Positions 7,135-49,809 of a stretch of DNA of 64,000 nt are shown here, piece after piece. Source of the DNA: Pelagibacteraceae bacterium (GTDB lineage: Bacteria; Pseudomonadota; Alphaproteobacteria; Pelagibacterales; Pelagibacteraceae); contig SHWS01000002.1 in NCBI GenBank assembly GCA_009693705.1, positions 1 through 64,000 on the forward strand. The letters run 5' to 3'. Under the pieces are notes generated by a model. It had not been told where the DNA came from, searched no databases, and saw only the letters and a list, made by a program, of their open reading frames with translations. Made by a program: the position numbers and the translations under genes. Positions within the stretch are counted from its first letter, which is position 1, and every line of letters begins with the position of its first letter.

Positions 7135-7162
7135 CTTGAAATATTTTACTAATTCCTAAATA
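7135..7162 (+). promoter_or_regulatory. Putative heat-shock sigma-32 (RpoH)-type promoter for hsp20
   Basis: CTTGAAA (7135-7141), 13-nt spacer, CCTAAATA (7155-7162); resembles CTTGAAA-N(11-16)-CCCCATNT. Confidence 0.6.
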
Positions 7163-7168
7163 TAATTC

Positions 7169-7230
7169 GTGAGTCGCCTAATGGGGCTTACATAAAATAA
7201 ACTTGCTAAACAAAGGAGGAGTATATTATG
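7169..7230 (+). promoter_or_regulatory. Candidate ROSE-like RNA thermometer in hsp20 5'UTR
   Basis: Hairpin I GTGAGTCGCC-TAAT-GGGGCTTAC (9 pairs, one bulged G). Hairpin II CUUGCU (7202-7207)/AGGAG (7214-7218) pairs the conserved ROSE UYGCU motif with the Shine-Dalgarno, leaving the G unpaired. Confidence 0.6.
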
Positions 7231-7674
7231 ACAAGTAAGGATCTATCTATATTTAACTCTCTTAGACCTTTTTCAATTGGTTTTGACGATATGTTTGACC
7301 AATTTGAGAATATGCTGGGAAATGGAAATTTAACAATGCATTCAAATTATCCACCATACAACATCAGAAAAACTGGCAAAAACAATTATGCTATTGAAGT
7401 AGCATTAGCTGGCTTTAACAAAAATGATGTTGAGGTTGAGTTTGAGGATCATTTGTTAACTGTAAGAACTAAACAAGTTAATAAATTAGAAAATACAGAT
7501 ACCGATGGAGAAATTATTCACAAAGGTATTTCTCAAAGACAATTTGCAAGAACATTTACAATTGCAGATGATATCAAAGTAAATGATGCTGCACTTAAAG
7601 ATGGTATTTTAACAATATCTTGTGAAAGAATTATTCCAGAACATAAAAAGAAAAAACTTATCGAAATTAAATAA
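7228..7674 (+). CDS. ibpA: Hsp20/alpha-crystallin family small heat-shock protein
   Basis: alpha-crystallin domain: YAIEVALAGFNKNDVEVEFEDHLLTV, RQFARTFTIADDIKVNDAALKDGILTI; strong SD aaaggagga. Confidence 0.93.
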   Translation: MTSKDLSIFNSLRPFSIGFDDMFDQFENMLGNGNLTMHSNYPPYNIRKTGKNNYAIEVALAGFNKNDVEVEFEDHLLTVRTKQVNKLENTDTDGEIIHKGISQRQFARTFTIADDIKVNDAALKDGILTISCERIIPEHKKKKLIEIK

Positions 7675-7682
7675 GTTTAGCC

Positions 7683-7712
7683 TTACTTGCAGGATAAATT
7701 CTCCGCAAGTAA
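7683..7712. terminator. Bidirectional hairpin between convergent hsp20 and lipoprotein genes
   Basis: TTACTTGC (7683-7690) / GCAAGTAA (7705-7712), perfect 8 bp, plus inner GGA/TCC with bulged A; little U-tract. Confidence 0.5.
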
Positions 7713-7715
7713 TTA

Positions 7716-8021
7716 CTAAAAACATCCGTTTGATACAAATCCAATAACCTTCGAATCTGAATTTATTTCAAATCTTCTTTCACAAGGAATAGTGTATTTT
7801 TTGGTATTATAGACAAACACCATATTTCCTTTTTCATTTCTGAAATCTTCATCTGGCTTACCTAAATTCATTTGTAAATCAGTAGAGGATTTGCCAATAA
7901 ACTTACTTAAGTTTTCATTCTCTTTTTCAACAATTGCATCAGTTTTTTTCTTAATAGTCTGACATCCTGTAATCACAGCCATCATGATCAAAGAGATAAA
8001 AATAAATTTTATTTTTTTCAT
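7716..8021 (-). CDS. Small lipoprotein
   Basis: Signal peptide with lipobox (MMAVITGC), 101 aa. Confidence 0.65.
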   Translation of the reverse strand: MKKIKFIFISLIMMAVITGCQTIKKKTDAIVEKENENLSKFIGKSSTDLQMNLGKPDEDFRNEKGNMVFVYNTKKYTIPCERRFEINSDSKVIGFVSNGCF

Positions 8022-8147
8022 AATTCAACAATTATAAATGAATTGTGGCATAAATATAAACTTTTGAGTTGAATAATGTGAATAAACTCAAGTTTAAAAG
8101 AGTAATTTACAATAGAATCAATTACTTATCCTTTAAAGGGAGGAAAA

Positions 8148-9458
8148 ATGCTTGAAAATTATTTTAATTATAAAAAACATAAAACAAATTTTAAAACTGA
8201 AGTAATGGCCGGAGTTGCAACTTTTTTGACAATGGCTTACATAATGTTTTTAAATCCATTTATACTATCCGGAGAATTTGCTGGTCCAGAAAAAGGATTT
8301 TTTGATTTTGGAGGGGTCTTCACAGCAACAATTCTTGCTACTTCATTTGCTTGCTTTGTCATGGGGTTTTACGGGAAAACATGGCCAATTGGTCTTGCGC
8401 CCGGAATGGGAATTAATGCATTTGTTGCATTTGGAGTTGTTGCAGGAATGGGTTACACACCACAAGCAGCGTTAGGAGCAACTTTAATTGCTGGGATATT
8501 ATTCTTAATTATTTCTTTAACACCAATTAGAGCTTGGTTAATAAATTCAATTCCCAAAAGCTTAAAGTTAGGTATCGGCGCAGGAATTGGTTTGTTCCTA
8601 TCTATTATTGGTCTAGAAATTATGGGAGTAGTTGCCGACCATCCTGTTACCTTAGTAACTTTAGGAAATATTAAAGATCCACTTATCATCTTAGGTTGCT
8701 TAGCTTTCGTTTCCATGATTGTGATGGAAAAATTAAATATTAAAGGAAATATCATTATTGGAATTATAGCATTCAGTATTATTGCTTGGGTTTCAGGTCT
8801 TGCCAAATTCAATGGGATCGTAGGAACTATTCCTCCAATGACACATCTTATGGATTTTGATTTATCTGCGGCTTTCACGGCGGGAATGTCTTCAGTGATT
8901 TTCACTTTATTGTTCATCGACTTTTTTGATACCGCAGGAACTCTAACTTCTGTAGCGAATGTTTCTGGTAAAGTTGATAAGCAAGGAAAAGTTGAGGATA
9001 TTGGTAAAGCAATGTTGTCAGATAGTGTTGCTACAGTTGCAGGAGCATTGCTAGGAACAACGACTGTAACAAGTTATGTAGAGTCAGGCGCTGGAGTTAA
9101 AGCAGGTGGAAGAACTGGTATGACGTCAATAGTTATTGGTATTTTATTTTTAGCTTGCTTATTTTTGTCTCCTCTTGCAACAAGTTTACCAAAACAAATT
9201 GATGGAGCCGCTCTTTTATACGTGGCTGTTTTATTTGTAAGAAATATTGTAGACATTGAATGGGATGATATTGCTGAGTCTGCACCCGCAGTGTTAGCGA
9301 TGATAGCAATGCCTCTAACTTATAGTATTAGTTATGGTATAGCTTTATCTTTCATTTCATATGCTTTAATTAAAATCTTTACTGGTAAATTTTCAAGCAC
9401 TTCACCAGCAATTTGGATTATAGCAATATTAAGCGTGATCAGTTTTGTTGTTGCTTAG
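8148..9458 (+). CDS. AzgA/PbuG-type NCS2 family purine (hypoxanthine/guanine/adenine) permease
   Basis: TEVMAGVATFLTMAYIMFLNPFIL, GLAPGMGINAFVAF, FIDFFDTAGTLTSVAN; strong SD aaagggagg. Confidence 0.9.
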   Translation: MLENYFNYKKHKTNFKTEVMAGVATFLTMAYIMFLNPFILSGEFAGPEKGFFDFGGVFTATILATSFACFVMGFYGKTWPIGLAPGMGINAFVAFGVVAGMGYTPQAALGATLIAGILFLIISLTPIRAWLINSIPKSLKLGIGAGIGLFLSIIGLEIMGVVADHPVTLVTLGNIKDPLIILGCLAFVSMIVMEKLNIKGNIIIGIIAFSIIAWVSGLAKFNGIVGTIPPMTHLMDFDLSAAFTAGMSSVIFTLLFIDFFDTAGTLTSVANVSGKVDKQGKVEDIGKAMLSDSVATVAGALLGTTTVTSYVESGAGVKAGGRTGMTSIVIGILFLACLFLSPLATSLPKQIDGAALLYVAVLFVRNIVDIEWDDIAESAPAVLAMIAMPLTYSISYGIALSFISYALIKIFTGKFSSTSPAIWIIAILSVISFVVA

Positions 9459-48322: not shown

Positions 48323-48673
48323 ATGAATAAAATTTTAGACTTAAAAAAAATCATTGTTAAAACCCTCGATATCAACAAAGCTCAGGATATAATAAGTATT
48401 GATCTTAAAGGTAAGAGCTCAATGGCCGATTACATGATTATTGCAAGCGGAACTTCTTCAAGACATATTCAGGCATTATCAGAGCAGGTACTTGAAAAAT
48501 TTAAAAATAATGGAATTAAAAATTCTAAAATTGAAGGAATAGAAAGTACTGAATGGAAGCTTGTAGATGGAATAGATTTAATCGTCCATATATTTCATCC
48601 TGAAAAAAGAAAATTTTATGAGCTAGAAAAAATTTGGTCTGAGTTAATTCCAAAAGAAAAAGTTATTATATGA
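48323..48673 (+). CDS. rsfS: Ribosome silencing factor RsfS
   Basis: SSMADYMIIASGTSSRHIQALSEQV, EWKLVDGIDLIVHIFHPEKRKFYELE. Confidence 0.95.
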   Translation: MNKILDLKKIIVKTLDINKAQDIISIDLKGKSSMADYMIIASGTSSRHIQALSEQVLEKFKNNGIKNSKIEGIESTEWKLVDGIDLIVHIFHPEKRKFYELEKIWSELIPKEKVII

Positions 48674-49809
48674 AAAAAATTCAGAGCTATATATTAATTT
48701 TTTTAGCTCAGTTTTTTTTTATTGAAGTTTTATATTCAGATGAAAATGATATTTATAAAAAAATAGATCTTTTTGGTGAAGTTCTTGAAAAAATAAATAG
48801 AGAATACGTTGAAGAAATTAATCAATCCGAAAGCATGGATGCAGCAATTAATGGTCTCCTTCAATCACTAGACCCTTATTCGGCATATATGTCACCCAAA
48901 ACCTTAATGGAAATGCAAGAGGACACCAGTGGCGAATTTGGCGGTCTTGGAATTGAAGTGAGTATGGAAGCTGGAGTAGTTAGGGTTATTTCACCAATCG
49001 ATGATACTCCTGCAGCAAAAGCTGGTTTAAAAGCTGGCGACTACATTGTTAAAATTAACGATACTCAAGTTCAGGGAAAAACTCTAATTGAAGCGGTAGA
49101 TTTAATGAAAGGTCCTGTTGGTACAAGCATTGAACTTACCGTAAGAAGAAAAGGCGAAAAAAAAGCTTTAACATTTAATATAACAAGAGAAATAATAGAA
49201 ATTCAATCCGTTAAATCAGATCTCTTAGATAACAACATTGGTTATTTAAGGTTAACTTCTTTTAATGATAACAGCAGCGATCAAATAAAAAAAAAAGTTC
49301 AAGAATTAAAAAAGAATAATGATTTAAAGGCTTATATTTTAGATTTGAGAAATAATCCTGGAGGATTATTAACACAAGCAATTGAAATCTCTGATTATTT
49401 CCTCGAGAATGGTGAAATTGTATCAACAAAAAGCAGAACACCTTCTGAAAATAAAAAATGGTTTGCAAAAGAGGGAGACATTACAGACGGAAAAACTTTA
49501 ATTGTTCTAATAAATAATGGTTCGGCATCTGCATCTGAAATTGTCGCAGGAGCATTAAAAGACCATAAAAGAGCAATTATTCTTGGAGAAAATAGTTACG
49601 GCAAAGGTTCCGTTCAATCAATAATTCCTTTGAGAAATAATGGGGCAATAAGATTAACTGTTGCTAAATACTACCTTCCATCTGGCAAATCTATTTCAGA
49701 GGTTGGAGTAATACCAGATATAGAGCTAATAGAAGATGGTGATAATTTTCTAATTAAAACTGAAACAGACAATCAACTAAACTACGCGATTAAATTACTT
49801 AACGGGTAA
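48670..49809 (+). CDS. ctpA: S41 family carboxyl-terminal processing protease
   Basis: PDZ domain, LDLRNNPGGLLTQAIEI, NNGSASASEIVAGALKDH, GKGSVQSI. Confidence 0.95.
   Translation: MKKIQSYILIFLAQFFFIEVLYSDENDIYKKIDLFGEVLEKINREYVEEINQSESMDAAINGLLQSLDPYSAYMSPKTLMEMQEDTSGEFGGLGIEVSMEAGVVRVISPIDDTPAAKAGLKAGDYIVKINDTQVQGKTLIEAVDLMKGPVGTSIELTVRRKGEKKALTFNITREIIEIQSVKSDLLDNNIGYLRLTSFNDNSSDQIKKKVQELKKNNDLKAYILDLRNNPGGLLTQAIEISDYFLENGEIVSTKSRTPSENKKWFAKEGDITDGKTLIVLINNGSASASEIVAGALKDHKRAIILGENSYGKGSVQSIIPLRNNGAIRLTVAKYYLPSGKSISEVGVIPDIELIEDGDNFLIKTETDNQLNYAIKLLNG

Follow-up and report, generated by a model that had tools for sequence, protein, structure and literature searches.

The window, by which we mean the whole 64,000-nucleotide stretch of DNA analysed, carries a small heat-shock gene with a short and strongly conserved structured leader. 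The 148-residue product contains an Hsp20 domain (Pfam HSP20 PF00011, 62.9 bits). The IbpA model scores 99.9 bits against this protein, under the equivalog cut-off of 212. Its nearest Hsp20 relatives are found in uncultured Pelagibacteraceae and Candidatus Pelagibacter ubique records. The window derives from a Pelagibacter (SAR11) genome, which holds a single hsp20 copy. In several SAR11 genera a permease gene lies near hsp20 (7228-9458 in the window; loci L307-L335). Hence, the neighbourhood seems old. The features of the locus are listed below.

7135-7162, forward strand: predicted RpoH/sigma32-type heat-shock promoter, CTTGAAA-N13-CCTAAATA (from sequence)
7169-7191, forward strand: hairpin I, GUGAGUC-(bulged G)-CC-UAAU-GG-GGCUUAC, 9 bp (from compensatory changes)
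7202-7207, forward strand: anti-Shine-Dalgarno (anti-SD) strand CUUGCU, comprising C7202 and the ROSE motif UUGCU at 7203-7207 (from conservation)
7214-7218, forward strand: Shine-Dalgarno (SD) sequence AGGAG (from invariance, register shift and Vienna fold)
7228-7674, forward strand: hsp20, an IbpA-like small heat-shock gene encoding 148 amino acids, with its ATG at 7228-7230
7231-7239, forward strand: codons 2-4, ACA AGT AAG, synonymously invariant in 130 distinct coding sequences

The promoter can be read directly. CTTGAAA occupies positions 7135-7141 and is followed by a 13-nt spacer, then CCTAAATA at 7155-7162. Among 143 relatives, 136 have CTTGAAA as the -35 box and the -10 element is mostly CCCATAT or ACCATAT. 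The genome encodes rpoH (357.7 bits, above the cut-off). A promoter of the same type precedes groES, both here and in many relatives. In the present genome the groES promoter reads CTTGAAA...CCCCATAT (locus L206; G000:C33:2402-2429, reverse strand). The site thus combines a CTTGAAA -35 box and a CCCATNT-like -10 element, shared with other heat-shock genes, in a genome that has rpoH. Since rpoH is present and groES uses the same promoter type, we strongly infer from sequence that hsp20 transcription depends on RpoH. In 123 of the 143 relatives the -35 box stands at one and the same distance from the bulged G of hairpin I. Such fixed spacing implies that hairpin I opens at the expected start of transcription, and the mRNA 5' end is predicted at, or just before, this hairpin. 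An earlier note on this DNA had proposed an RpoH-type promoter; the rpoH gene, the similar groES promoter and the constant spacing all bear this out.

The leader spans 59 nt (7169-7227) and its fold has a z-score of -2.5 relative to shuffled sequences. Our comparative set held about 150 leaders from many genera. All 79 hsp20 loci of Pelagibacteraceae whose upstream region is intact conserve the leader, and the same leader, with its architecture intact, precedes hsp20 in many genera of the SAR11 family. When the genome was searched with a covariance model of the leader, the sole convincing match was this site (71.9 bits, E 7e-13). No further copy was convincing, the second-best match scoring 21.6 bits (E 0.14). 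The earlier note had placed the promoter, hairpin I, UUGCU, AGGAG and ATG correctly, base for base. It had also named an unconserved UUGCU or hairpin I as grounds for giving up its reading. We found the opposite: both are conserved in relatives. An AATA/TATT extension of the SD helix, suggested in the same note, does occur in the fold of the window. However, relatives show free variation in the bases that follow the SD (GATAT, TAAAT, GAAACA, AATATT). We rejected the extension as a conserved part of the element.

Hairpin I is formed by GTGAGTCGCC (7169-7178) and GGGGCTTAC (7183-7191), separated by TAAT (7179-7182). The bulged G (G7176) and the CC/GG pairs at the tip are almost invariant. Compensatory changes were found at five of the nine pairs in the first 49 leaders and at eight of nine in 92 distinct leaders, where 98.8% of cells were paired. 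Double-changed cells numbered 92, whereas shuffles gave 20.0 and sliding of the partner strand gave no more than 30; of our two alignments, A2 had been fitted to the model and is therefore biased toward structure, but A1 (MAFFT) had not. ROSE elements have at least one stable 5' hairpin ahead of the sensor hairpin, and hairpin I takes this place. An ordinary leader with a strong SD might resemble a ROSE element by chance, and an Rfam score under the gathering cut-off (see below) would fit that idea. Yet conservation across the family, and covariation exceeding both shuffled and slid controls, exclude it in practice. Moreover, the groES leader, in this genome and those of relatives, is short and lacks any ROSE feature despite the same promoter type. 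We consider chance resemblance extremely improbable.

The sensor helix lies between hairpin I and the start codon. The anti-SD strand is separated from the SD by AAACAA (7208-7213). The pairs are C7202-G7218, U7203-A7217, U7204-G7216, C7206-G7215 and U7207-A7214, with G7205 bulged. Hence, the ROSE signature, U(U/C)GCU upstream of and complementary to the SD with one G bulged, is present. Among close relatives, CTTGCT and AGGAG each occur in 49 of 49 distinct leaders. More widely, T[TC]GCT faces GGAG in every SAR11 Hsp20 leader that we examined, apart from L261 and L266. These two, which have no T[TC]GCT, belong to very divergent Hsp20 paralogues of two Pelagibacteraceae genomes. The other ROSE form, UCGCU, appears in genus g3, in one g4 genome and in the sister family f2.

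The SD helix is nearly invariant, with one double change in each of two of its five pairs (92 distinct leaders). Consequently, there is almost no base-pair covariation to score, and covariation supports hairpin I far better than the SD helix. A different kind of evidence comes from the two main leader classes. One has CUUGCUU with AAGGAG and the other, an insertion class, has CCUUGCUA with AGGAGG. Both hold a six-pair helix, each in a different register. A G follows GGAG in 37 of 37 leaders of the CCUUGCUA class versus 91 of 110 of the CUUGCUU class (Fisher 0.004, ignoring shared ancestry). CUUGCUU leaders do not need this G for pairing. Likewise, AA precedes GGAG in 110 of 110 CUUGCUU leaders versus 34 of 37 of the CCUUGCUA class (Fisher 0.015, again with shared ancestry ignored). 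As the flanking bases follow the class, the SD helix appears to survive the register shift. The window itself has CUUGCUA, as do L037 and L245, and its helix has five pairs. We base the pairing of CUUGCU with AGGAG on its invariance, on the shift of both strands seen in the insertion class, and on homology.

No Rfam ROSE family matched the window at its gathering threshold. ROSE_3 (RF02523) scored 19.6 bits at 7168-7233 against a threshold of 43 bits (E 0.068, corrected for 4227 families); all 69 positions were aligned. Another Pelagibacter hsp20 leader reached 28.3 bits. Across the order, the ROSE_3 gathering score was attained in none of 147 genomes. The order-wide RF02523 matches were mostly due to chance: among nine of the best loci that we inspected, only the strongest, L082, shows the hsp20 leader. 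To place these scores in context, E. coli ibpA passes a ROSE cut-off but 19 further hsp20 loci from Alphaproteobacteria all fall short of every Rfam ROSE cut-off, although most of them carry the motif. Because Rfam also misses these loci, failure at threshold is uninformative. We conclude that Rfam's ROSE models are too narrow to call the SAR11 leader. In most sampled alphaproteobacterial hsp20 leaders, T[TC]GCT faces the SD and GC-rich hairpins lie upstream; the leader of sister family f2 is longer and has UCGCU. Separately, the window's only Rfam match at a gathering threshold was to RF02800 (Rp_sR47; 49345-49643, reverse strand, 61.2 bits). It sits antisense within a gene at 48670-49809 that is, by eye, a ctpA-like C-terminal processing protease. 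The match probably reflects coding-sequence similarity and not an sRNA.

Below the threshold, the likeness to ROSE_3 is extensive. Both hairpins align end to end, including the bulged G and CUUGCU/AGGAG, but loop and linker lengths differ in SAR11. E. coli ibpA, represented by ROSE_2 (RF01832), belongs to the same gene family and has UCGCU facing AGGAG. Its leader forms three to four hairpins (PMC3669281). By eye, a GCGCC-UGAU-GGGUGUU stretch in E. coli resembles hairpin I, and our SAR11 leader model (R1) found no match in the E. coli ibpA leader. ROSE-G offers a further comparison (PMC12857270). In its SD helix two G residues face each other, and this is also the register predicted by Vienna in the window. 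Unlike the SAR11 leader, the ROSE-G motif is CUGCU and precedes ABC transporter genes. Furthermore, the register with a single bulged G is available in nearly all SAR11 leaders, whereas the extra G needed for the G-G register is absent from 19 of 110 CUUGCUU leaders.

The closest parallel is the short ROSE element of Pseudomonas ibpA. This has two hairpins, is experimentally proven and requires sigma32 for transcription; only hairpin II melts (PMC3669281). Like the SAR11 leader, it has a conserved 5' hairpin with compensatory change, a sigma32 promoter and a small heat-shock gene, and its U(U/C)GCU pairs with the SD in hairpin II (PMC3669281). The SAR11 leader differs in its host, an alphaproteobacterium with an AT-rich genome, and in the invariance of codons 2-4. 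In addition, most SAR11 leaders lack a G-C clamp on both sides of the sensor helix, and the CUUGCUU class has loop-side U-A pairs. The earlier note took the short leader to be a departure from classical ROSE, and the union of sigma32 with ROSE to be unusual. Neither view holds, since Pseudomonas ibpA already provides a short two-hairpin ROSE and sigma32 with ROSE is the usual arrangement (PMC3669281).

By the sequence and structural criteria examined, which include a small heat-shock gene starting at 7228 directly 3' of the ROSE-like leader, the SAR11 leader is a ROSE element. Its motif, SD pairing and hairpin I are conserved across the SAR11 family, and the earlier note's core reading, a ROSE-type thermometer, stands as the one to which the sequences point. 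We consider it very likely that the 59-nt Pelagibacter hsp20 leader is a two-hairpin ROSE-type RNA thermometer, and that it would sense temperature as follows. RpoH would make the hsp20 mRNA, as the promoter suggests. Hairpin I, supported by covariation, would stay folded as a stable structural or mRNA-protecting 5' element, a role suggested by Pseudomonas. At normal temperature CUUGCU would pair with AGGAG, with one G bulged, and so keep the ribosome off. Warming would melt the weak SD helix and allow Hsp20 to be made.

Folding models are consistent with the closed state. In the Vienna fold of the window the SD helix is closed at low temperature. Modelled opening of the SD then rises smoothly with temperature, giving a shallow melting curve. 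For the bulged-G helix alone, nearest-neighbour energies are near zero at 25 C, and in many relatives the anti-SD is predicted to pair preferentially with codons 3-5; both points weigh against the thermometer reading. The nearest-neighbour model has the window SD half open near 46 C and the E. coli ibpA SD never opening, but its parameters describe the non-canonical pairs of ROSE-type helices poorly, so that neither a melting midpoint nor the tuning to cold seawater suggested in the earlier note can be read from it.

The structure could also be real without sensing temperature. Hairpin I might then protect the 5' end or bind a protein, and pairing of UUGCU with the SD would merely fix translation at a constant rate, leaving heat control entirely to RpoH. 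Such a leader would account for covariation that is far stronger in hairpin I than in the SD helix, and for the shallow modelled melting curve. It would not account for the preservation of anti-SD/SD pairing through the helix shift. This class of motif is an experimentally proven thermometer in other members of the gene family (PMC3669281). On balance, we regard a leader that does not sense temperature as unlikely, and favour the ROSE-type thermometer.

The first codons of hsp20 show an unexpected constraint. Of 105 conserved codons compared across 130 distinct coding sequences from Pelagibacter and sister genera, codons 2-4 alone show no synonymous change. The median conserved hsp20 codon is 71% uniform. 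The codons used are among the rarer ones: AGT accounts for 85 of 1198 serine codons and AAG for 323 of 1787 lysine codons. In subsamples of 30 genes, codons 2-4 were invariant in 500 of 500 draws and the next codon in 95 of 500 (19%). No synonymously invariant run was detected in the first codons of groES or the neighbouring permease, both sampled across the same family.

In the window AGUAAG (7234-7239) could pair along its whole length with CUUGCU (7202-7207). In most relatives the complement extends to 7 nt, and 7 bp are kept in both anti-SD classes: AAGUAAG complements CUUGCUU and AGUAAGG complements CCUUGCU, with one G-U pair each. Because codons 3-5 complement the anti-SD, this strand has two potential partners, these codons and the SD. 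It is therefore possible, if doubtful, that in Pelagibacter and sister genera a bistable ROSE element reaches into the gene. The anti-SD would switch partners, from the SD to AAGUAAG of codons 3-5 (AGUAAGG for CCUUGCUA leaders) and back, and the balance of the two hairpins would set translation. This would explain the absence of synonymous change at codons 2-4, a feature that the first codons of groES and the permease do not share. Consistent with it, one K4R variant retains the complement through wobble, and Vienna predicts codon pairing as the dominant fold in several relatives. In the window, however, codon pairing does not dominate, and in the model SD pairing wins up to 37 C. The complementarity is also confined to MTSKD-type genes of g1, g5, g6, g149, g150 and g153. 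Genera with a different N-terminus (g2, g3, g151, g149b, f2) showed none, and neither did other Alphaproteobacteria, bar one exception at chance level. Variant L195 (AGTAGA) breaks the complement. Leaders of the CCUUGCUA class offer no partner to the last A of ACA, yet ACA does not vary there either. Finally, the complement was sought after the fact, with a synonymous-null P of about 0.01-0.05 per sequence (0.10-0.18 for two S3G genes). We note that g4 locus L242 has a different N-terminus and a six-pair complement to the anti-SD. We conclude that an RNA-level constraint on codons 2-4 is much better supported than its cause.

The element has perhaps been noticed before. A 'possible RNA thermometer' is mentioned among intergenic regions of HIMB5, also SAR11, in a report whose main text does not name the gene (PMC6429828). 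That candidate could be this very hsp20 leader. This mention aside, we found no description of a Pelagibacter hsp20 thermometer in the literature searched. What is new is a SAR11 leader of the known ROSE kind, together with the constraint on the first codons of hsp20. SAR11 are among the most abundant bacterial groups and have few regulators. Hence, an mRNA leader that senses temperature is a plausible means for them to follow ocean warming, and the hsp20 leader provides a ready sequence marker for such direct sensing. The set of about 150 leaders would allow us to ask whether thermometer stability tracks habitat temperature. To our knowledge, extension into the coding sequence is no recognised part of the ROSE family so far. 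Judging from the invariant first codons, ROSE-type control may reach that far.
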